In this document: in pieces, positions 6,746 to 22,464 of the stretch | Position numbering within the stretch: the first letter of the stretch is position 1 | How the letters are laid out: every line of letters begins with the position of its first letter | Virus record (IMG/VR): IMGVR_UViG_3300025030_000436 | Location: 1-22,464 of that record | Length of the DNA: 22,464 nt | Source of the DNA: a virus | Strand: one strand, 5' to 3' | The notes under the pieces: generated by a model | Database searches by the model: none | What the model was told of the DNA's origin: nothing | What the model saw: the letters and a program-made list of their open reading frames with translations, nothing else | Program-made: the position numbers and the translations under genes

Positions 6746-8338
6746 TTATCTTTTATTTGTTTCACCATCTCTAGCAATAATCCCACCATCACTTAATTTG
6801 TCATCAGCAATATTTGGTCTTCCACCTTCATCATCATCAGAATTTCCAGACTGATTCATATTTTTAGGAGCAACCCAATTGTCTTTTGATTTAATTAGAT
6901 TTTCATATTCTAATGTTGCATTATAACAATCACTTGAATGTCCTACCTTTGTAATTAAAACATTCAATGAACCTCCTATTGTAGTTAGTTTATATTCATT
7001 ATCAATTATTTCTTGTTGATTATACCAAGTTGTTTTCCATATATTTAATTTAAAAGTATATTTTTTGCGTAAGTTTACATTGCTAATTCTATAATTAAAC
7101 CAACTCTGTATTTTATCTAACATGCTAAAAACTATTGATTGGATATAAATTAAATTCTGTGCTATACCAACAGATGAATTTGTACTTGAACCTCCAAGTA
7201 ATAAAGGATTCGCTCCTGCTTGCATATATGCCATTGATTTAGCAAATTCAGCTAAGTTAGTTTTTTCATTTTGTATACTTCTAAATGGAATCTCACGTAG
7301 AGGATATGGCGATCCAGTTATAGTAACTTTATCAGAAACCCCAGAAGCTACAACATTTACCCATTGAGACACAATATCTGGTTCTACTAAAGGAATTCCT
7401 GTTTCTTTATCGTGTGGAAATTCAATATTAATGAGTTTTATTGAATCATCCCTAGAACTCTCAATCTCCTCATCAATCAAATCATTTAATAAATACAATT
7501 CAGTAAATAATTGACTATATAATGGCAAAAAGAAAGTATCATTATCTCCACCTAATTTAATACAACATACTTTATCACTGGGTAGGGGTTGCCACTCTGG
7601 ATACCTTAATCTATCTGAATTAGTTTTATATTTATTGTATAATATTTTAAATTCATCAGGATATATTTCTTCCCATGCGAATTCAGAAAGTTCACTATCC
7701 CTTAATAATTCTTCAAAATATTTAAAGTTAAATTCTACAGTAAATTGTCCTGATTTTATTGAACGCAATCTAACATATTTTATGGGCAAATCCCATAAAT
7801 AAGGGAAATTACCGTCATTCTTTTCAAATCCACAATAACCACCATATCTAACTAAACTTTCAATGATTCTACGTCCAGTTTTTTTTATATCTATATTATC
7901 AATATATTTTCTAACAGTAGAAAATTCATTATTAAAATTTTTTAAAATTTTATTTATTACTTCCTGTAATTCTTCTTCAGATAATTCTTTTGATGTTTGA
8001 TTAGCAATTTCTTCTTTTAATTTTTGCATTGTAGAAAAATCAGGTTGAAGATAATTATCTAATGTAGCCATATTTGTAGTTAAATTAACTAATACTTTAT
8101 ACATTCCTTCAGGTGCATATAAATTATCTGATAAATCAAGTATCTCATTTTGATATTTTTGTGGATTGCCTAACCATAATTTTATTTTATCAATTGTTAC
8201 ATTTTTTAAATTTCTACGTTTATTTATAAATAATCCACCTATTCTTGATAGAGAAAAGTTTTTTGCTGATTCCCATGATTTTTTTAATGAGAATAGGGTA
8301 GGGGAGAGGTTTTGATTATTGGGTATTTGGTCTGACAT
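6746..8338 (-). CDS. Portal protein
   Basis: This 530-residue protein should form the dodecameric DNA-entry ring at one head vertex. The N-terminus contains SWESAKNFSLSRIGGLFINK and LKNVTIDKIKLWLGNPQKY. The middle includes an LWDLPIKYVRLRSI region and the GANPLLLGGSSTNSSVG segment followed by a long helix, which I associate with portals of Bacillota phages. The C-terminus is a likely disordered acidic tail (NSDDDEGGRPNIADDKLSDGG). The start has AGAAAGGAGG upstream, but the ribosome-binding site can pair with the 8306-8313 segment. It follows the large terminase by 25 bases and precedes the protease, the standard order. Confidence 0.87.
   Translation of the reverse strand: MSDQIPNNQNLSPTLFSLKKSWESAKNFSLSRIGGLFINKRRNLKNVTIDKIKLWLGNPQKYQNEILDLSDNLYAPEGMYKVLVNLTTNMATLDNYLQPDFSTMQKLKEEIANQTSKELSEEELQEVINKILKNFNNEFSTVRKYIDNIDIKKTGRRIIESLVRYGGYCGFEKNDGNFPYLWDLPIKYVRLRSIKSGQFTVEFNFKYFEELLRDSELSEFAWEEIYPDEFKILYNKYKTNSDRLRYPEWQPLPSDKVCCIKLGGDNDTFFLPLYSQLFTELYLLNDLIDEEIESSRDDSIKLINIEFPHDKETGIPLVEPDIVSQWVNVVASGVSDKVTITGSPYPLREIPFRSIQNEKTNLAEFAKSMAYMQAGANPLLLGGSSTNSSVGIAQNLIYIQSIVFSMLDKIQSWFNYRISNVNLRKKYTFKLNIWKTTWYNQQEIIDNEYKLTTIGGSLNVLITKVGHSSDCYNATLEYENLIKSKDNWVAPKNMNQSGNSDDDEGGRPNIADDKLSDGGIIARDGETNKR
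8294..8310 (-). promoter_or_regulatory. C/U-rich 17-base motif, copy 1 (portal 5' coding region)
   Basis: The plus strand reads TAGGGTAGGGGAGAGGT. It is identical to 18631-18647 and close to 15588-15604. It begins 28 bases after the portal start codon. It contributes AAAACCTC, which pairs with the portal ribosome-binding site (8306-8313 with 8341-8348), putting the start codon in a 27-base loop. Confidence 0.5.
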
Positions 8339-8363: not shown

Positions 8364-10169
8364 TTATCTTCTTGCTCTTGATGATTTGTTTGCTATAGCA
8401 AAATATGATGATGGGGAGATGTTAGTGTTTTTCTTTTTTCCCGTAATATGTTTTCTTCTTAATTCTGATAAATACCATGCAAGCATAGCTATACAATAAG
8501 CTCTATCATCATATAATCTACCTACTCTATCATCCCTTAAATCATATCTATAATTACCATTTGTTCCATCATATCTATACATGTTAACTAATTCTTCTTT
8601 AGCTAAATCAATATTTTTTAAAGCTAATTCTTCATCAAAAGATAATTTATATGATTTTTCACTATCGGCAAAAGTTAAAAATCCTTTCATATCATAATCT
8701 TCAGTAAAACTTATTAAATCAAGATTTAACATTTCAATAAGTGCGTCAAATAACATTTTTTTATATTTTTGTGGTGAAAGCAATTTAATTTTATCAACCG
8801 CATTTGGAAATTTTGAAATATAATCTGATGATTCAATTTTATCAATTAAACCTTTATGTTTAATTCCAGTATTATCAGTCCAATCTTCCATAAGATAATC
8901 TGCAATATTAACACCACCTCCACCACTACCTGCATCAATGCAGATAGTTTCTATATTTTCATAGTCAGCAGATTGTTTACCATTATAATCTAAAATCATT
9001 TGTTTTAAATGATTTACTTGTTCTGGTGTTCTCATTGGTGTTTTCTTTTTCTTAGCAATATCAACAAAACTTACACCATTGCATATTTCCATTTTATAAC
9101 CAATATTATCATCAAATATAATCTCTCCAACCATTGTAATAGCATTGTCGTAAGATCTACTAGGGTCATATGCTAATGCAAATTTTCTATTACTATCATT
9201 AGCAAATACAGGTTTTCTTAATTGAGAATTTCTAATAAGTACAGATCTTTTAATAATTTGCTTATCAGAGCCTTCCGTAGTAAAAATATTTTTGTATTCC
9301 CTCATTCCCTTGTCGTAATTCTCACGCATGGCATTATCTATTGTTTGTTGACTAAGTAATGGAACTGGATATAATTTTCCATTAAAAGTTGCATTTATTA
9401 CTACGTCAGAATTTATATCTGCTACAAAATAATTAGAATCACCAATCATCATTTTTTGTGCATATTCTCTATATATTCTAAAAAAAAATGTATCTGTACT
9501 TGATGCTGAAGATGCAAATATTGCCTGGTTTGGAAATTGTCTTGGAAATGTTGATACATCAATATCTCCACCAAGTCTAAAACTACTGTTTTGAGTAATA
9601 AATGGTAATGATGCAGTAAATAATTCATCTGGAGCAAAACCACTTTCATCATAAAAATTGCAATTTGAGCGTTTTGAACGAATATTATTAATTGCTCCAT
9701 TTAATGAATTTACTGCGCTTCCGTTATAAAGGTTATATTCAAAAGAACTTGGATTGTGTGTAAAACCATCTTTATTGGAGGCACTTTTTACAGTTTCATT
9801 TAGAAAAACATCTGTTAAACCAGTAAAAGATGCAATTTCTTTTTTTGCTATTTTTTCAATTTTTGAGAACATTTCTTGACTTTGACTTCCAGATCCAGCT
9901 AAAATATAAGCTTGAAAATTCGGTATAAGCAAACTTTTTGCCATTAAAAAAGGTGAACCAAGCGTAGTTTTTCCTGATGAACGCCCCATACACCAAACAC
10001 AATTAGGAGTATACCAACTTTTTAAAAATACAAATTTTTGAAAATCAAGAAGATCTAATCCGAAAAATCTTTCTGCAAAACGTACTGGAAATTTACGTCC
10101 CCAATTAACTATTTCTGCAAGTTTTAAATATCCATCAATTTTTCTTTGTGACATAGTTTTTTTATTCAT
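8364..10169 (-). CDS. terL: Terminase large subunit (packaging ATPase and nuclease)
   Basis: This 601-residue motor cuts concatemeric DNA and drives it into the head. Walker A is GRSSGKTT at 62-69, and Walker B with the catalytic Glu is CNFYDE at 170-175. The C-terminal RNase H-like nuclease shows Asp335 in AYDPSRS, Asp412 in CIDAGSGGGG and Asp554 or 555 in YDDRAYCIAM. Length is normal and both active sites look complete. The gene overlaps the putative small terminase gene by 8 bases, implying translational coupling, with GAAGGTGA upstream of its ATG. No intein or intron interruption was seen. Confidence 0.95.
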   Translation of the reverse strand: MNKKTMSQRKIDGYLKLAEIVNWGRKFPVRFAERFFGLDLLDFQKFVFLKSWYTPNCVWCMGRSSGKTTLGSPFLMAKSLLIPNFQAYILAGSGSQSQEMFSKIEKIAKKEIASFTGLTDVFLNETVKSASNKDGFTHNPSSFEYNLYNGSAVNSLNGAINNIRSKRSNCNFYDESGFAPDELFTASLPFITQNSSFRLGGDIDVSTFPRQFPNQAIFASSASSTDTFFFRIYREYAQKMMIGDSNYFVADINSDVVINATFNGKLYPVPLLSQQTIDNAMRENYDKGMREYKNIFTTEGSDKQIIKRSVLIRNSQLRKPVFANDSNRKFALAYDPSRSYDNAITMVGEIIFDDNIGYKMEICNGVSFVDIAKKKKTPMRTPEQVNHLKQMILDYNGKQSADYENIETICIDAGSGGGGVNIADYLMEDWTDNTGIKHKGLIDKIESSDYISKFPNAVDKIKLLSPQKYKKMLFDALIEMLNLDLISFTEDYDMKGFLTFADSEKSYKLSFDEELALKNIDLAKEELVNMYRYDGTNGNYRYDLRDDRVGRLYDDRAYCIAMLAWYLSELRRKHITGKKKNTNISPSSYFAIANKSSRARR

Positions 10170-11262
10170 TAACTATGTCACCTTCTCTAATTTTTATTTT
10201 TAATAATCTATTTTCTTCTTCTAATTTTATATTTTTCTTTTGTAAATTTTGAAGTAAATTACGTTGTTCATTAATCATAAAAGTATAATCATTTTCATCA
10301 AATTGTAATTGTTTTAAAATACTATTATTACTAATATCTGCTACCTGTTTCATTCCTTCGCAAGTTTCTATATCAAAAAGATTTACTTCCACTTCCATAA
10401 AACCTTTTTCTTGAAGTTGTTTAATAATTCCAGATAAAGTACCTGCACCTTTAGATTTATTGGTTGCATGATTAACTGAGATTCCATTATCTTTAGCCAT
10501 AGCAAGAATAGCACGATATATTTTATCTTTAGTTTCAAATAAAGACTTAACTCCACCAACTTGATTTTGAACGTTACTTATATCACTAGTCATCAATGTT
10601 AATGCTTGATTAAGTTTATCTATTTGATTAAAACTTTTAACTATTTCGATTACTATAGGCAATTTAAAAGAATCTTCAAGTGTTGATTCATCAAGAAAAT
10701 CAACTAGAGTATTATAAAGATATTTTTTATCCATTGGATTATCGTTTTCAAATGGATCATAACCAACCATGCGAATTACATCTTCTTTATTACGTTGGTC
10801 TTCTTCATTTGTATCTAATTTTATCTCAGTCTCAAATATATTAATATTCTTATCAGATTCTAATGGAGTTGATTCTGAAAATGTTCGAGATCCATATTGT
10901 GGCAATGAATTTACTTTTTGAAAATATATCTGTGCAATGTTACTATTACTATTATTTGCTTGTTGTTCTGCACTATAATATAAACTTGATTCAAAATATA
11001 CATCAAGTAATCTACATAAAAAATATAATGCAATTTTACAATCATCATATTTTTTAACCAAATATTCGTATAAATCTACACAACATTGACGACATACAAC
11101 CATTCGTTGATTATTTGCTTTTAATATTATTGAATTAGATTTGTAAAAATCTTTATCTTGATTTTTTTCTTGTCCACAACAAACACATTTAAACATAACT
11201 TTTTCTTTTTTAGGTTGTGGCATAATTGCCACAGTTTTTTTCACTCTAGGAATAAACGCCAC
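10162..11262 (-). CDS. Putative terminase small subunit with N-terminal zinc finger
   Basis: This 366-residue protein has a CxxC...CxxC zinc finger near its N-terminus (KCVCCGQEKNQDKDFYKS through VVCRQCC, about residues 25-61), an acidic linker, and a C-terminal coiled coil (about 325-358). Zinc-finger proteins of this type lie just before the large terminase in several Bacillota phages, and the 8-base overlap with terL supports a DNA-recognition partner role. The assignment rests on context and memory. The start is unclear: AAAGGAG lies almost against the GTG at 11262, so initiation may occur a few codons later. The gene begins 18 bases after the HNH endonuclease gene, whose insertion may have disturbed its leader. 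Confidence 0.7.
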   Translation of the reverse strand: MAFIPRVKKTVAIMPQPKKEKVMFKCVCCGQEKNQDKDFYKSNSIILKANNQRMVVCRQCCVDLYEYLVKKYDDCKIALYFLCRLLDVYFESSLYYSAEQQANNSNSNIAQIYFQKVNSLPQYGSRTFSESTPLESDKNINIFETEIKLDTNEEDQRNKEDVIRMVGYDPFENDNPMDKKYLYNTLVDFLDESTLEDSFKLPIVIEIVKSFNQIDKLNQALTLMTSDISNVQNQVGGVKSLFETKDKIYRAILAMAKDNGISVNHATNKSKGAGTLSGIIKQLQEKGFMEVEVNLFDIETCEGMKQVADISNNSILKQLQFDENDYTFMINEQRNLLQNLQKKNIKLEEENRLLKIKIREGDIVNE

Positions 11263-11280: not shown

Positions 11281-12759
11281 TTAACTAACATCTAACAAAT
11301 CTTTATATTTTCCATTATAATAATTATTAACAAATTCTTCAAATTGTTTTTGCGTATTATTACCATATCCAAACTCCATATGGAATCTAAAGTGGATATT
11401 CTCATTTAAACAAACTCCAAAAGGATGCCTATAATGAATTTCTAAACATTTATTAATTAATTTTTTTAATTCATCTTCAGTATAATCACTTATATTATCA
11501 TATAAAACTAATCCAGTTTCTTTTAAAGTATCTTGTATAATATTATCAAATGAATATAAATGATGCACAGCATCAAATTTACCATTAGATAATATACATT
11601 TATAATTACAATTTTCTATGCTATCTAATTTCCATTGTTTAATATTCCTTCTCAATTCTTGATATAAATTACTTATACCACCTTTATAATTTGGATTTAA
11701 TATTCCAAATCTTTGACTATTATATTGAGGATTATCATTCATCGCCCATTTATTTAAAGCAATTAATCTATTAGAATTAAATTTACCTATTTCACTATAT
11801 ATTTTATTTATTGTTTCTTCTGTCTTATAAATACCTAATTCTTTAGCTTTATGCATAATACTAATAATAGAAATAAATGGGAAATATATATTCATTAAAT
11901 CATTATTTGACATATGTGGATATTTTTCTTTTAATAATATTTTTTCTTCATCTGTCCATCTATGAACATTTGAATCTACTCTAAATTTTTCTCCTTTACA
12001 TTCTTTACATACATTTCTTAAATTATCAGTACATGATTCATCTTTTGGAAAATAATCAAAATTACAAGGTAAATATCTATTACAACTTTTACAATATTTA
12101 TGTAATATATTATTAATAAATTTATATTTATAATCATTATAGTTTTCTACATGATTACTTATTTTTCTTAAATTTAATTTTTGTGCAACATGTAATATTG
12201 ATTTTTCAGTACGTTCTATTGACAATAAAGGAATAATTTCTTTTATTGATTTATCTATATAATTATCCTTTATAATATTTATATCTTTTTCTAACCAACT
12301 TTCAGATGCAATATTAGGAAAGAAATCTCTTCCAATACATTTCCAACACATATTCCTATAATTATCAAGACATTTTTTATCAGATTGAAAATAATCTCTA
12401 GTTAATGGATAAGTATTACCACAAGTTTTACATTTTTTATATCCTTCGTCTGCTCCATTTCTTCTACGAATAATTTGACATTTAATACATACATTATAAA
12501 ATCCATCAGATGATTTATTTAAAGTATTAAAATTATTTTTATTTATTTCTAATACTTTACCACAATCAACACATTTTTTATAATTTTCTGGTAAGTCATT
12601 TTGTTTTCTATTTTTCTTTTTATTAATTTCACTTCTGCAAATTTTACAAATTGAATTTAAACCATCCTTACAACCACTATGAATATGAAAATACTCTTTT
12701 GTTGATGGTTTTTCTTCACCACATTCTTTACACTTCTTTAACTTAACCTCTTCGCCCAT
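11281..12759 (-). CDS. HNH homing endonuclease with four zinc-finger modules
   Basis: This 492-residue protein is a probable free-standing homing endonuclease. Four CxxC...CxxC modules occur at residues 10-41, 63-94, 110-141 and 223-254, each with a YF or NF and an N-x-x-C pattern. Two similar helical DNA-binding units lie at about 155-198 and 268-312 (WTDEEKILLKEKYPHMSNND, HKAKELGI). The nuclease region includes LNPNYKGGISNLYQELRR, HH at 399-400 (AVHHLYSF) and GVCLNENIHFRFH at 448-460. All expected His residues are present. It is directly upstream of the terminase genes, which suggests that its target lies there. The ribosome-binding site is weak (GGTGA) and follows a structured leader. Confidence 0.88.
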   Translation of the reverse strand: MGEEVKLKKCKECGEEKPSTKEYFHIHSGCKDGLNSICKICRSEINKKKNRKQNDLPENYKKCVDCGKVLEINKNNFNTLNKSSDGFYNVCIKCQIIRRRNGADEGYKKCKTCGNTYPLTRDYFQSDKKCLDNYRNMCWKCIGRDFFPNIASESWLEKDINIIKDNYIDKSIKEIIPLLSIERTEKSILHVAQKLNLRKISNHVENYNDYKYKFINNILHKYCKSCNRYLPCNFDYFPKDESCTDNLRNVCKECKGEKFRVDSNVHRWTDEEKILLKEKYPHMSNNDLMNIYFPFISIISIMHKAKELGIYKTEETINKIYSEIGKFNSNRLIALNKWAMNDNPQYNSQRFGILNPNYKGGISNLYQELRRNIKQWKLDSIENCNYKCILSNGKFDAVHHLYSFDNIIQDTLKETGLVLYDNISDYTEDELKKLINKCLEIHYRHPFGVCLNENIHFRFHMEFGYGNNTQKQFEEFVNNYYNGKYKDLLDVS

Positions 12760-15667: not shown

Positions 15668-16267
15668 TTATAGAATTTTATCTACGCAACCTAAAATAAT
15701 TGCTTCTTCAGGCCATAATGAAACGTCTAAATCATGTTCAGTAATATTATCAAGTTTATCTTGTGTAATATTAGTATATTTTAGTATTACATCTTGACAT
15801 CTACGCCATAATTCTTCTAAATCTTTTAGTTTCCTTTTAGATTGTTCTACTGATGTATTTCCTAATTCGTAAGATTGCAATTGATGATATAAAAATCGAG
15901 TATGTTTTTGACAAATACGTTCCGAAGTAGATATGAAGATTTTAAATGCTCCGCTCATAATTTTTCCGTATGCTTTACCAATTATTTTATATCCCATATC
16001 TTTTAAAGTCTCTATAGTAGAAATAATACTTAATGTTGCGTAAACTGACCCACCATAACTTGAAACTTTTAATATGATTGGTTCTGCATCTTTAGGATTT
16101 ACATTATTCTTTTGATCTCTTTCTACTATTTTTTCAAACATTCTATTAATGATAAATTCCGTATCTTCATCAATAATATCATCATTTAAATATATTGTAC
16201 GTTCATTAATATAAGCATTAAGTTTAATTTCTTCTACTATTTTATTTATTGGAGTTAATATTTCCAT
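15668..16267 (-). CDS. ClpP-like serine protease
   Basis: This 199-residue protein has the ClpP/crotonase fold pattern. It shows SSYGGSVYATLSIISTI at 69-85 (oxyanion and substrate-strand region), Ser105 in GKIMSGAFKIF, His128 in RFLYHQLQ, and an Asp near 179-181 in EHDLDVSLWPEEA, followed by the GCVDKIL end that closes ClpP proteins. The nucleophile context differs from the usual G-x-S-A-A-S-M, but Ser and His are kept, so it may be active. Phage ClpP-like proteins are often prohead or regulatory proteases. As a separate protease-scaffold protein is encoded in the head module, this one may have another substrate. AAAGG lies about 10 bases upstream. Confidence 0.82.
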   Translation of the reverse strand: MEILTPINKIVEEIKLNAYINERTIYLNDDIIDEDTEFIINRMFEKIVERDQKNNVNPKDAEPIILKVSSYGGSVYATLSIISTIETLKDMGYKIIGKAYGKIMSGAFKIFISTSERICQKHTRFLYHQLQSYELGNTSVEQSKRKLKDLEELWRRCQDVILKYTNITQDKLDNITEHDLDVSLWPEEAIILGCVDKIL

Positions 16268-16290: not shown

Positions 16291-17016
16291 TTATTTAATT
16301 ACTGAATGTAAAATATCAGTCAATCCTAATTCTTTATCCCAAATAAAACTTTGTGCTTTCTTAGTTAAATATTCATTTTTTGTAATCCATTTATAACCAT
16401 ATGCAGTTTTATTCCTATATTTATAATTTAATACTCTTTGAATATTACTTGTAACTTTCCCTGAAAAATATATTTCTGCTTCAGATATTGAAACAAATTC
16501 TCTTATAAAATCACCAGTATTTTTATCTAACTGTATAATTTCAATATTACTATGATGTTCTTTTCCACCTTTTTGTCCCAAGCCTAATAATTTTCTTGTA
16601 TTAGATAATTTACTTTTGCTAAATTCTGACATTATATAACCTTTTCTAGATTCAGACATTTTATGTTTAGTTTTTAAAGAATGTTTTTTATTCAGCCATG
16701 GTTGACCATTCCCAATTACTCCACCAATCAAAGTATTATATCCGTTTTTAACAGTATCTAAATAATTTATCCAATAACATTCACGTTCATTAAGCAATTC
16801 TTTATTATCTACAATTTCTATGATTTCAAATTTAAAATTATCATTACCATATTTTCTTATAGCATTATGAAATTTATTATTATCTATTTTATTTTTTGAA
16901 TCACTAAAATGTTTTCTAACTCTTTCTTCTAATGATTGTGTTGTTTGTCCAACATAGATTTTACCATTAATAATATTAATTATTTTATAAATACAAAATA
17001 TCTTTTCAGTTTCCAT
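16291..17016 (-). CDS. GIY-YIG homing endonuclease with a metallophosphoesterase-like C-terminal tail
   Basis: This 241-residue protein is a probable free-standing homing endonuclease. The GIY-YIG domain (about 6-95) has CIY at 8-10 in place of GIY, YVG at 21-23, Arg32 and catalytic Glu77 in LLNERECYWI. A NUMOD3 motif follows (about 104-126, LNKKHSLKTKHKMSESRKG), then a NUMOD1 region (about 160-212, IIQLDKNTGDFIREFVS to GYKWITK). The last 23 residues (KKAQSFIWDKELGLTDI and on) do not belong to these modules; they match the metallophosphoesterase C-terminus encoded upstream. AAGGAG lies about 12 bases before the ATG. It sits between that enzyme's gene and the ClpP-like gene. Confidence 0.9.
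   Translation of the reverse strand: METEKIFCIYKIINIINGKIYVGQTTQSLEERVRKHFSDSKNKIDNNKFHNAIRKYGNDNFKFEIIEIVDNKELLNERECYWINYLDTVKNGYNTLIGGVIGNGQPWLNKKHSLKTKHKMSESRKGYIMSEFSKSKLSNTRKLLGLGQKGGKEHHSNIEIIQLDKNTGDFIREFVSISEAEIYFSGKVTSNIQRVLNYKYRNKTAYGYKWITKNEYLTKKAQSFIWDKELGLTDILHSVIK
16294..16362 (-). repeat. Tail homologous to the metallophosphoesterase C-terminus (mate at 17269-17337)
   Basis: Both segments encode 23 residues ending at a stop codon. The shared pattern is KKxQSFIxxxxLGxTDxxxxxxK, with 11 identical positions and most others conservative. By eye the DNA is identical at 44 of 69 positions. This is a gene fragment fused to the endonuclease. Confidence 0.75.
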
Positions 17017-17265: not shown

Positions 17266-18612
17266 TCATTTAACAATAGTATTAATAACATCTGTAATAC
17301 CTAAATCATCATTAATAATAAAACTCTGATTCTTCTTTTCAGATTGAATATATCCACTATCATTAGACCAACGTGAAGTTCCTGACACTGTAGGCAATCT
17401 CATAATCTCTAAATATCCTTGTTTTTCATAAATCATAGATTGATGAAGATGTGCTAACATGCAAATTATATGTTCTGATTGACTCCACATATCTTTTGCT
17501 TCCGTAGTTATAATCTTCAATGCATCTTTAATTTTCATATCATGAGATAAACATAATAATGTTTTACCTATTCTACAATATTTACGAGGTAGAGGAGAGG
17601 AATCAATTTTAATATTATCATCATTCTTATACCAAGCATTTATTGTTTGCATTATTCCAAACATAGTATGTAAATCATGATTAGATGGTACATATTGAAC
17701 ATCTACTGGAGCAATTTCTGACAACATATCAATTCCATTAATAATTAATTGAGTTGCTTTTACAACAGTAGTAAACCATAATGCAGAATTATCTTGTGGT
17801 GTTAAACGAGTTGTAGTTCCTGATAAATTATCCGCATTTATTGCATCATTGCCTACAACAAATAATACTTTTTCAAATTTTCTATGTTTTACTCTATTGA
17901 TAATATCATTTAAAGTATAATAATAAATTTGTTCTGCAATTTCTAAATTATATTCATTGCCAGTTGAATAGTTATCAGAAAGTAAACCGTAGTGCAAATC
18001 CGCAATCGGAACAACTAAAGTATCTCCATTTTGTTCATATTGCTTTGATATAATATTACATTTATTTTTATATTCTGTTTTGATATTAGCAAATAACTTA
18101 TTAATATCTTCAATATTCCATTTATATTCTGTGACTGGTTTAACCACAATCTTACTAGAATACAAAATCATGATTCCATCTTTCTTACTATAACTATTCC
18201 ATATATTATTTTTAGCACTGACTAATTGAAAAACTTTAGAATCGTAACCATGTGCTTTTAAAAGAAACTCTGTATCTTTTGCATCATTTTCTGACATTTG
18301 AATTAATTTATCACTAGTTTGCGTATTATCTTTATTTAATTCAATAGTATTCTTATAATTTTTAGTTAATTCTGATTCTAAATTATTATCATTGATACTA
18401 TTTTGTACCTGACTATCTACAATACTTTTTTTATATTCATCAATAGTCATCTGTAATACAGTTAATGCTTTTCTGGCATGATCTGAAGAAACTTGTTTAT
18501 TATATAGTAATTCATAAATTTCACATTTATCTAAATCATAAAAACTTTTATTCTCTAATAATCTATCAGCATAATTTATAAAATTCTCATTGTCTTTTCT
18601 TAAATGTTCCAT
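17266..18612 (-). CDS. Calcineurin-like metallophosphoesterase
   Basis: This protein of 448 residues probably hydrolyses a phosphodiester or phosphoester using two metal ions. In this numbering the motifs are DLH at 205-207 (PIADLHYG), GND at 254-256, NHD at 311-313 (PSNHDLH), SHD at 356-358 and AHLH at 387-390. All five classic motif positions are filled. Residues 1-180 are a helical extension (QVSSDHARKALTVLQMTIDE) that may bind DNA or a partner. I chose the ATG at 18612 because GAGG lies 6 bases upstream; an ATG 20 codons earlier (18672) keeps the frame but has no ribosome-binding site. Phage relatives are often called metallophosphatases or recombination nucleases. The substrate is unknown. 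Confidence 0.85.
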   Translation of the reverse strand: MEHLRKDNENFINYADRLLENKSFYDLDKCEIYELLYNKQVSSDHARKALTVLQMTIDEYKKSIVDSQVQNSINDNNLESELTKNYKNTIELNKDNTQTSDKLIQMSENDAKDTEFLLKAHGYDSKVFQLVSAKNNIWNSYSKKDGIMILYSSKIVVKPVTEYKWNIEDINKLFANIKTEYKNKCNIISKQYEQNGDTLVVPIADLHYGLLSDNYSTGNEYNLEIAEQIYYYTLNDIINRVKHRKFEKVLFVVGNDAINADNLSGTTTRLTPQDNSALWFTTVVKATQLIINGIDMLSEIAPVDVQYVPSNHDLHTMFGIMQTINAWYKNDDNIKIDSSPLPRKYCRIGKTLLCLSHDMKIKDALKIITTEAKDMWSQSEHIICMLAHLHQSMIYEKQGYLEIMRLPTVSGTSRWSNDSGYIQSEKKNQSFIINDDLGITDVINTIVK

Positions 18613-18630
18613 ACAATTCCTCAATTCTAG

Positions 18631-18661
18631 TAGGGTAGGGGAGAGGTATAAAAATATACCT
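18631..18661 (-). promoter_or_regulatory. Leader hairpin and C/U-rich motif copy 2 before the metallophosphoesterase
   Basis: TAGGGTAGGGGAGAGGT (plus strand, 18631-18647) is identical to the portal copy. It overlaps a perfect 7-bp hairpin, 18644-18650 with 18655-18661. With the preferred start at 18612 this is untranslated leader; with the upstream ATG it would be coding, in the same frame as the portal copy. Confidence 0.5.
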
Positions 18662-18705
18662 TTATCGACCATTTTTATTTAATTCAGTTGGTGTACAATC
18701 CCACC

Positions 18706-18872: not shown

Positions 18873-20099
18873 TTAATCCATCCAATCCATATCACTGATC
18901 ATTTTACTAATTTCACTTCTATGGTCTTCAATCATATTTACCTGTCCTACAATATATTTATCTTTAAAATTATTAATTGCAACAGATAATCCATTTCTAT
19001 TTAAACAATATCTATTATCAATTTGAGAAGTAGAACCATCTAATAATACAAATGTTCCTTCACCAATTCTTGAAAGTAATCTTTCCATTTCAGAAGGAGT
19101 AAAATCTTGTGCTTCATTAATATATAAAATAGAATTTCTTAAACTTCTACCTTTGGCAAATTGAATAGGTAATATTTCTAATTTATTATTTCTTAATAAA
19201 ATATCCATTAAATTATCTTCTGAGGTGGTATCACACAAAACACCTAATAATGGTTCTGTCTTCTCCACAACTCCTCCTGGAATCGCAGGAAATTCTCTTC
19301 TATTTTTTGGAGGAGAATCACTTTTTACAAAATATAATTTATCTACTTTTTCTTTATCTAACATATGTAATGCCCAATGAATCATCAAAAAACTTTTTCC
19401 AACGCCATATCTTGAATCAGTTATTTTAATTTTTATATTATCATTTTGAAGCATATGTATAAATGCTTTTTGATAAATATCTAATGGAATAATTTTATTT
19501 ACATATTTATTTACTATTGGTTTAATTTTAACTTCTTCAAAATACTTATTCCATGTAAATAAATATTCATCATTTGATGTTATATTATGAATTATTATAT
19601 ATTCATTAGGTTGAAAATTATATGAATTAGGATTTTCAAGTAAGTTAACATATTCTTGTTCTGTTAATGTTAGTTTTCTAATACCATTATAATTATTATT
19701 ATTACCATCTTCAAACTCAAACATCTTACATGGTAATCCTAATGCTTGTGCTTTGACAATTAAATTGTAATCATCTGAGACAAAAATCATTTCATTATCT
19801 TTATTTTCATAAGTGGTATATGCCATAGATAAAATCATATTATCATTACTTTGATTAGAAAACATTACACCACAAATATTAGCACCGTTCATTATAACTT
19901 CTACATTATCAGCAAATTTTATATCTTTGATTATTCTCCTTGCTTGATATGATAATCTTTCATCTCTTTTAAGTTTATCTAATTCCTCAATTGAGACTAT
20001 TGATATATAGACTTTTTGATAATCACTTAGATTAAATTTTGAGTTAAGTAAAATATTTGTATCACAAAAAACTTTATTTGTTTTCTGTTCATCTTTCAT
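18873..20099 (-). CDS. PIN-PhoH fusion protein (PhoH2-like)
   Basis: This 408-residue protein joins a PIN ribonuclease domain (about 8-130) to a PhoH ATPase (about 205-408). PIN acidic residues: Asp13 (VFCDTN), Glu38 (SIEELDKLK), Asp86 (SNDNMI) and Asp109-Asp110 (VSDDYN). The PhoH part has Walker A-like SRYGVGKS (229-236), where the first Gly is Ser, and a Walker B-like LYINEAQDF, where the usual Asp before Glu is Asn. The sensor-like segment LLDGSTSQID replaces the more usual GDPSQID. PhoH2 proteins are RNA helicase-nucleases by established knowledge; activity here is uncertain. I prefer the ATG at 20099 because AAGGA lies nine bases away; the ATG at 20108 is adjacent to it. Confidence 0.85.
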   Translation of the reverse strand: MKDEQKTNKVFCDTNILLNSKFNLSDYQKVYISIVSIEELDKLKRDERLSYQARRIIKDIKFADNVEVIMNGANICGVMFSNQSNDNMILSMAYTTYENKDNEMIFVSDDYNLIVKAQALGLPCKMFEFEDGNNNNYNGIRKLTLTEQEYVNLLENPNSYNFQPNEYIIIHNITSNDEYLFTWNKYFEEVKIKPIVNKYVNKIIPLDIYQKAFIHMLQNDNIKIKITDSRYGVGKSFLMIHWALHMLDKEKVDKLYFVKSDSPPKNRREFPAIPGGVVEKTEPLLGVLCDTTSEDNLMDILLRNNKLEILPIQFAKGRSLRNSILYINEAQDFTPSEMERLLSRIGEGTFVLLDGSTSQIDNRYCLNRNGLSVAINNFKDKYIVGQVNMIEDHRSEISKMISDMDWMD

Positions 20100-20138
20100 A
20101 AATTTCATTCCTTTTCAGAAAATTTTTGTTGCTACTAT

Positions 20139-20330: not shown

Positions 20331-20395
20331 TGTTTACTAGATTCTCCTTTTATGATTTATTTTTTGTTATTAATTTTTTGTTTAGGAAATTAAAA

Positions 20396-20422
20396 AGAGA
20401 GTAGAACGCATCCTAACTCTCT
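20396..20422 (-). terminator. Strong intrinsic terminator after the RNA polymerase gene
   Basis: 20396-20404 pairs with 20413-20422 over 9 bp with one bulged base and an 8-base loop (GATGCGTT in minus-strand RNA). It is followed by UUUUAAUUU. This is the most GC-rich terminator in the window and separates the polymerase gene from the 63-residue gene. Confidence 0.75.
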
Positions 20423-20568: not shown

Positions 20569-22464
20569 CTAAAAATTTAGACCTTTTAGTAATTTATATT
20601 GCGTTTTTATATAGAATTTTCCGAATATATTATAATCCCAATCATCATTTTCAAATACTTCTGCCAATATATCTTCATTTGAAATATCTTTGTTTCTAAA
20701 ACATTTTAATACTTCTAATTTATTAGATAAAAATAATAAATTTAAACATACTATAGAATATTTAGAAAAACCTATATCATCATTAATTATTTTAAAACAT
20801 TTTCTAAGAATATGTAAAATAGTGGAGGTTTTTATTTTATAATTCATTAATTCTTTAACTGCTTTTTCTTTTTCTTTTCTCCTTATATAACTTTTTGCAT
20901 TATCATTTAATTTGCAAGTATCAATTTTTAATCCATTAATCTTTTTCCCACATTGACTAATAATTTTATATATAATATTTATTTGTTTATAATTTACATT
21001 ATCTAATTCACAAGGAGTAATAAGTAAATCTTTAAAATCTATATTTTTACATCTATTACCACCATTAAAAACTAAAACATCTTGTAAAATATCCATAGGA
21101 GTATTAAATTTTTCAAATATTCTATACTCACCTGATTTAAATATCATAGAGAAAAATTTTGGAACTGTCATTTTATTAACTTGTTTACCAAATCTATCTT
21201 CACCTTCAACATATATAATATTTGCATTATTTTTAATTATTTTAAGTTCATTATGCATATTAACATTATCAAATAATTTTTTACTTTTATCTATTTCAAT
21301 TTGAGATAAAGAAGATAATCTACTACTTAAATTATATAATTCGTCTATTACATCTTGAGATTTTTTATTAAATATAGCATCATTCATGTAAGAATTTATT
21401 ACTTGTGATAAATTTATTATTTTTCCTATATAGTTATTACTCAATACAATATCTAATTTATTTATTTCATTCATATTGTATTTTCTTGGTTTTGCCACGC
21501 CTTTAACCATATTTATAGGAGTTTTAAAATTAGTTTCGCAATATTTTGCTTTATCAACTAACAAATTATGACATAAAAGTAAAATAGTGTCACTATCTAC
21601 ATCACAGCCCTGCAACCTATCTGGTGCATCATTATCAAAAAAATTAATTGCACAAATATTATCAGTTAAATTAAACCAATTATACTCATTGTGTTTTTTA
21701 TTTACAGTATGCATTACATTTCCAGCATTTACATGAGGGTTTCTTGAAGCACAAAACTCTTGACCATCATTATAATAAGGGCAATATATCTCCCTTCCTT
21801 TCATAATAGAATTATCTTTATATTCTCCTATTGAAGCTAACAACATTTCATAAGGGTTAGAAAATAATGTAACGTATTTTGTATTTTCTAATCTTATTTT
21901 ACCAATTCTTAAGTTGTTTATATAATTAGAAATTAATTCACTTTTAATATCTTTGAATTTCTTTGTTTTCATTATATCTGGATTAACCAATAATAGACCA
22001 TTTATTAAATCAATAGTATCATATGAAGAAATATCTCCTTCATCAATACTTTCATTAAAAAGATAATTTAATTTATAGTCTCTTAATAAATAATTACGGA
22101 AAACAACATTATCATTTTTTAATAAATTAACATATTCTCTTTCTAATTTAGTTAATTCTATTAAATCTTCATAAGTTAAATTTGGAATACTATTTAATAA
22201 TTGATAAGTTGTTCTATTATATGTTCCAAAATTTGTATCTTTGTCGCATTTTACTACACCAAAAGTAGAATCAACATTATTTATCCAATGTTTATAACAA
22301 TCTTTTAATTTACCTGTTTTTATTTTATAAGCAAACTTTAAAAATTTTAATGAATTAGGAGTAGTTATTAATTTTATTTTATCAGCATCATAGGTATTGC
22401 CAAACATATCAGTAAGTTTTGTTATTTTATTTTTATTAAACCATGATTGAAGTTTTGTATTAAA
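20569..22464 (-). CDS. Two-barrel (YonO/QDE-1-like) RNA polymerase, 5' end outside window
   Basis: The frame stays open to the right edge, so the true start is upstream; 631 codons plus stop are visible. Counting from the first internal Met (22407), the catalytic motif is Asp269-Val-Asp271-Ser-Asp273, within RLQGCDVDSDTILLL (21589-21603). It corresponds to DxDGD of the second double-psi barrel, which holds the catalytic metal. The preceding CASRNPHVNAGN and TDNICAINFF segments and the following KTPINMVKG, NYIGKIINLSQVINS and IEIDKSKKLF match a family of single-chain polymerases I know from Bacillota phages and mobile elements; YonO of phage SPbeta is the named relative. It probably transcribes phage genes. 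The N-terminal barrel may lie partly outside. Confidence 0.82.
   Translation of the reverse strand, partial: FNTKLQSWFNKNKITKLTDMFGNTYDADKIKLITTPNSLKFLKFAYKIKTGKLKDCYKHWINNVDSTFGVVKCDKDTNFGTYNRTTYQLLNSIPNLTYEDLIELTKLEREYVNLLKNDNVVFRNYLLRDYKLNYLFNESIDEGDISSYDTIDLINGLLLVNPDIMKTKKFKDIKSELISNYINNLRIGKIRLENTKYVTLFSNPYEMLLASIGEYKDNSIMKGREIYCPYYNDGQEFCASRNPHVNAGNVMHTVNKKHNEYNWFNLTDNICAINFFDNDAPDRLQGCDVDSDTILLLCHNLLVDKAKYCETNFKTPINMVKGVAKPRKYNMNEINKLDIVLSNNYIGKIINLSQVINSYMNDAIFNKKSQDVIDELYNLSSRLSSLSQIEIDKSKKLFDNVNMHNELKIIKNNANIIYVEGEDRFGKQVNKMTVPKFFSMIFKSGEYRIFEKFNTPMDILQDVLVFNGGNRCKNIDFKDLLITPCELDNVNYKQINIIYKIISQCGKKINGLKIDTCKLNDNAKSYIRRKEKEKAVKELMNYKIKTSTILHILRKCFKIINDDIGFSKYSIVCLNLLFLSNKLEVLKCFRNKDISNEDILAEVFENDDWDYNIFGKFYIKTQYKLLKGLNF

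Follow-up and report, generated by a model that had tools for sequence, protein, structure and literature searches.

To our knowledge, among the enzymes of its phage group only YonO of phage SPβ has been characterized biochemically. This processive RNA polymerase is DNA-dependent, with a strong preference for DNA as template; the late genes of SPβ, 37 of them read as one operon starting upstream of yonK, require it, and its aspartate-triad mutant (3D>3N) is inactive (PMC5467207). The two-barrel RNA polymerase superfamily, with its supposedly universal DxDGD loop, also includes all cellular RNA polymerases. This motif has been called universally conserved in a review (PMC7598289) and is written DxDxD in two papers (PMC7824862, PMC10770324). 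A further trait given for the YonO-like single-chain enzymes is an upstream barrel that lacks an SBHM insert (PMC7824862).

The window analyzed here, i.e., the whole 22,464-base virus record, stops within a gene whose product carries the motif DVDSD. Sequence conservation, a predicted structure and analogy with SPβ make it likely that the product is a YonO-type RNA polymerase for late genes: DNA-dependent, folded as one chain with two double-psi barrels, and with serine at the position usually held by glycine.

Identification of the polymerase gene

The reading frame extends for 631 amino acids with no stop as far as the contig end (open reading frame list), and the 5′ part of the gene lies outside the contig. 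A first-pass annotation had proposed a polymerase gene here, and the frame proved to be real: it encodes the catalytic motif and both upstream blocks named in that annotation (Table 1), and its product matches phrog_8308 (E 2.1e-54), a family without assigned function. Complete copies of the gene, whose recovery had also been advised, were obtained from two contigs. The copy at L004:5200-7893 encodes 898 amino acids from a TTG start and differs from the window copy by two residues; a second complete copy, on L005, encodes 900 amino acids and is 95% identical. The catalytic aspartates had been given as Asp269, Asp271 and Asp273, a count from an internal ATG that becomes 555, 557 and 559 in the full protein.

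Profile searches connect this protein to YonO. The family phrog_8308 matches yonO in the SPβ record at E 0, and in a control search of 14 known genomes it was found in only one, that of Bacillus subtilis. The protein also matches YonO by BLASTP (E 2e-8; identity ~20%), and a profile of 92 relatives aligned with a profile of YonO and three close homologues over 530 columns (hhalign; probability 99.8, E 1.6e-27). The relatives also matched a second, sister group of glycine-type proteins (E 2.2e-37), some members of which reach the gathering score of the Pfam family RdRP (PF05183). The window protein gave no match at that score, no Pfam or NCBIfam family covers it, and its weaker PHROGs match is to phrog_4291, named "RNA-dependent RNA polymerase" (E 1.5e-6). 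Because neither phmmer nor profile searches returned a meaningful match among PDB sequences, the fold assignment rests on a predicted model.

Table 1. Features of the window, with positions on the 22,464-base record and the basis of each assignment.
Feature	Position	Strand	Basis or remark
Two-barrel RNA polymerase gene, 3′ two thirds	20569..22464	-	residues 268-898 of full protein and stop
K307 codon	22345..22347	-	invariant lysine of Ser and Gly groups
RNPHVNAGN block	21718..21744	-	R508, P510 invariant in Ser and Gly groups; H511 in Ser clade
LTDNICAIN block	21643..21669	-	
Catalytic motif DVDSD (D555, D557, S558, D559), second double-psi barrel	21589..21603	-	relatives' alignment
IEIDKSK block	21280..21300	-	D659, K662 conserved in Ser and Gly groups
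Hairpin and T run directly after polymerase gene	20392..20421	-	probable terminator
PIN-PhoH protein	18873..20108	-	domain and PHROG profiles
Exonuclease-like metallophosphoesterase	17266..18672	-	homologous to SPβ yonJ
ClpP-type prohead protease	15668..16267	-	domain and PHROG profiles
yonG-like gene, just before terminase	10162..11262	-	homology to SPβ yonG
Terminase large subunit	8364..10169	-	homologous to SPβ yonF
Portal protein	6746..8338	-	phrog_2739

Predicted fold and template

An AlphaFold2 model of the polymerase, built on a 92-sequence alignment, reached a mean pLDDT of 90.6 and a pTM of 0.86, and is predicted to hold both double-psi barrels in one chain. In a Foldseek search of the PDB, only QDE-1 and plant RDR2 were retrieved at E < 0.001. 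Structural superposition with VIA-align gave Z scores of 22-24 for QDE-1, with an end-to-end alignment of 657 residues at Z 24, and of 19-27 for RDR2 (15 for its open form), followed by the phage proteins P74 gp62 and P32 gp64 (15.8) and P23-45 gp96 (10.7-11.4) and by the large subunits of cellular RNA polymerases (about 8-9). A designed double-psi barrel superposed on model residues 461-566, a region that contains DVDSD (Z 8.2, 2.0 Å, 79 residues); the double-psi-barrel match on which the first-pass annotation had staked its assignment is thus present in the model. Profiles and predicted fold together uphold its proposal of a YonO/QDE-1-type polymerase. Of the three comparisons that it had suggested, YonO was recovered by profiles and QDE-1 by fold, whereas crAss-like gp66 was absent among the fold matches listed for the model.

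The structural matches bear on the choice of template. A polymerase that copies RNA in the manner of QDE-1 and RDR2, for example one that turns transcripts of the phage or its host into double-stranded RNA, would accord with RNA-silencing enzymes being the best structural matches and with some sister proteins passing the Pfam RdRP threshold, and QDE-1 is reported to accept both DNA and RNA as templates (PMC2950127). The top viral predicted structure is likewise named "RNA dependent RNA polymerase" (TM 0.85 by query length). However, database names of this type reflect fold and not tests, and YonO, which belongs to the same PHROG, strongly prefers DNA (PMC5467207). We consequently hold an RNA-templated enzyme to be quite improbable and favor a DNA-dependent polymerase.

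Conservation and history of the catalytic serine

The serine remarked upon at the outset in place of the usual glycine is a real difference: YonO reads DNDGD, and the window protein, which does not have glycine as the fourth motif residue, lies outside the canonical DxDGD class. Among 171 distinct relatives with a readable position, most of which were gathered for their resemblance to the window protein and which hence represent this neighborhood rather than the whole superfamily, the motif was DxDSD in 152, DxDGD in 17, DxDAD in one and ambiguous at this residue in one. DxDSD is the rule across a clade of more than 100 sequences. On a quick tree of 69 sequences, computed with the fourth motif column removed and including some long branches, the distribution of serine and glycine needs two changes, as against an average of 13.8 in 500 label shuffles. 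One large clade unites 51 serine sequences, and a trio from the Bacilli sample (L211, L212 and L214) nested among glycine sequences marks a second, independent origin. Reversion from serine to glycine may also occur, since a partial sequence excluded from the tree (L198) scores as a member of the serine clade yet carries DNDGD. Judged from these sequences, serine is a clade-wide trait of one large branch, whose members come from phages of Clostridia and from mobile elements. This branch has apparently not been described so far: no DxDSD-type polymerase motif appeared among the literature matches listed, although an earlier mention is possible.

The three aspartates of DVDSD show no variation across the 92 aligned relatives. 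Positions that are essentially invariant in both the serine and glycine groups comprise D235, G236, R259, K264, K307, Y354, Q355, R508, P510, D555/557/559 and N618. K264, which is outside the window, and K307 are the two lysines invariant in both groups and are, by this conservation, candidates for the basic residues of the upstream barrel. Given that the aspartate triad and the other conserved positions are unchanged in both groups, serine appears to be tolerated in a seemingly intact active site. In such a site, the catalytic magnesium would be held by the three aspartates, with help from K264 and K307, following the pattern of QDE-1 and of cellular RNA polymerases.

The departure from a loop described as universally conserved (PMC7598289) might instead indicate that the serine variant is catalytically dead and has been retained as a structural or regulatory protein. 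This is very improbable. Serine has two origins on the tree, and dozens of divergent members share an unchanged aspartate triad together with the same residues at the other conserved positions, which would be surprising in a decayed enzyme. For an active polymerase, which remains our preferred reading, the change from glycine to serine could alter function. A large natural DxDSD clade offers a ready-made test of the role of that glycine.

Late-gene neighborhood and transcription signals

Co-directional and downstream of the polymerase gene lie the genes for the PIN-PhoH protein, the phosphoesterase, a GIY-YIG-like protein, the ClpP-type prohead protease, the terminase and the portal protein (Table 1). 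The series polymerase, phosphoesterase, yonG-like gene, TerL and portal recurs, always co-directional, at dozens of loci. In SPβ, yonO is followed by homologues yonJ, yonG and yonF in matching order, such that the order from polymerase to TerL is common to the window and SPβ by homology. The portal is shared by annotation; the window portal profile gave no match to SPβ yonE, although the portal is the next gene in both.

The hairpin and T run directly after the polymerase gene are near-identical in three related contigs (L013, L014 and L030). The hairpin is the only element conserved here, in the closest four or five relatives, and no Rfam family matches it. It is a probable terminator separating the polymerase gene from the late genes, and this arrangement fits separate transcription of the two. 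A scan for sigma-70-type promoters found 84, a number at the level of chance (82.8 expected), and no conserved promoter-like block stood out downstream of the polymerase gene when 19 close relatives were aligned.

The crAss-like gp66 is believed to be a virion-packaged early RNA polymerase. A similar enzyme in the present phage, injected with the DNA and transcribing early genes, could be suggested by the structural genes that adjoin the polymerase gene and by a fold class that includes phage virion polymerases such as P23-45 gp96 (PMC10770324). We nevertheless judge such a role improbable: the polymerase is not fused to a tail or tape-measure protein, and YonO, the nearest relative of known function whose gene order agrees, acts on late genes (PMC5467207).

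The SPβ-like gene order and the work on YonO (PMC5467207) instead lend support, by analogy, to the transcription of late genes proposed in the first-pass annotation. In the late-gene model, the polymerase would be made from its own transcription unit, ending at the terminator just after the gene. It would then use one or a few phage-specific promoters to transcribe the co-directional late module, i.e., the genes for PhoH, phosphoesterase, prohead protease, terminase, portal and capsid. We infer activity, late timing, promoter recognition and the use of DNA instead of RNA as template from the predicted structure and from this analogy.

Two further genes within the late module, an HNH-like gene (11281-12759) and the GIY-YIG-like gene (16291-17016), are absent or located elsewhere in many relatives and therefore look like homing-endonuclease insertions.

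Distribution, mobile elements and interrupted genes

Matches to phrog_8308 (E < 1e-10) were detected in 19 of 391 genomes sampled from the class to which the Konateibacter genome belongs and in 12 of 399 sampled from that of the Peribacillus genome. Prophages account for some of the chromosomal copies, such as L099, where tape measure and amidase genes are present. In seven loci (L007, L119, L121, L125, L135, L142 and L144), a DxDSD polymerase is instead found near a MobL-type relaxase; L125, the MobL locus that was scanned, encodes a ribbon-helix-helix protein and two tyrosine integrases as well. The polymerases of these loci are apparently carried by integrative mobilizable elements and not by phages, and a late-gene role cannot fit every member of the family because some of the elements contain no detected phage late genes. 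On its opposite strand, L135 also encodes another two-barrel polymerase, one with a DxDGD motif (L135:1-2694, minus strand).

It is conceivable, though in our view doubtful, that the DxDSD clade forms a functionally distinct polymerase class that also serves MobL-type integrative elements and in which serine changes metal or nucleotide handling. Were this the case, the handling affected would be fidelity, template choice or substrate choice. The serine clade is widespread in phages of gut Clostridia and in mobile elements, and would be a source of single-chain enzymes for transcription that probably recognize promoters of their own.

Several polymerase genes are interrupted. In five loci (L085, L086, L143, L148 and L151), the gene is broken exactly between the codon for the first catalytic aspartate and the next (D/xDSD), and four of the five contain group I intron matches (RF00028, E 8e-7 to 2e-4, below gathering score). 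A split one or two codons earlier is seen at L010:4275-5525, where the insert carries an HNH-like open reading frame, and a clear group I intron is located further on. The same contig also contains matches to ROOL RNA and RAGATH-18 RNA (L010:8424-9021 and 10421-10481) and two tRNAs. In phage phi3T (L180, L184), a split in yonO lies downstream of the codons for the catalytic motif, and the gap had no match in Rfam; yonO of SPβ is not split.

Comparison with known polymerases

The motif of QDE-1 and RDR2 is DxDGD. The window protein resembles QDE-1 of Neurospora and plant RDR2 in overall predicted fold (Z 19-27 for most entries) and in an aspartate triad in the second double-psi barrel, but these are eukaryotic RNA-silencing enzymes and the window protein has no Pfam RdRP match. 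Like P74 gp62, P32 gp64 and P23-45 gp96, it is predicted to be a single-chain two-barrel phage polymerase (Z 11-16). These proteins, however, belong to Thermus phages, no close sequence relation was found between them and the window protein, and P23-45 gp96 is fused to a tape measure.

The nearest counterparts are of the YonO type. SPβ YonO shares with the window protein membership of PHROG 8308, a single chain, the aspartate triad and a late module ordered as polymerase, exonuclease, yonG, terminase and portal. The two differ in catalytic motif (DNDGD versus DxDSD), are only ~20% identical, and have different neighbors, with yonO adjoining the HU-like yonN and the window gene adjoining PhoH. 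YonO-like proteins encoded by phages of Enterocloster and Thomasclavelia (L008, L009) also match this PHROG and lie in head modules with the same gene order, but read DFDGD and occupy a separate branch of the tree. Of these glycine-type phages, that of Thomasclavelia keeps the full order from polymerase to portal, while no phosphoesterase was detected in that of Enterocloster. Single-chain RNA polymerases of the YonO type were already known; what appears to be new is a serine that characterizes an entire clade.
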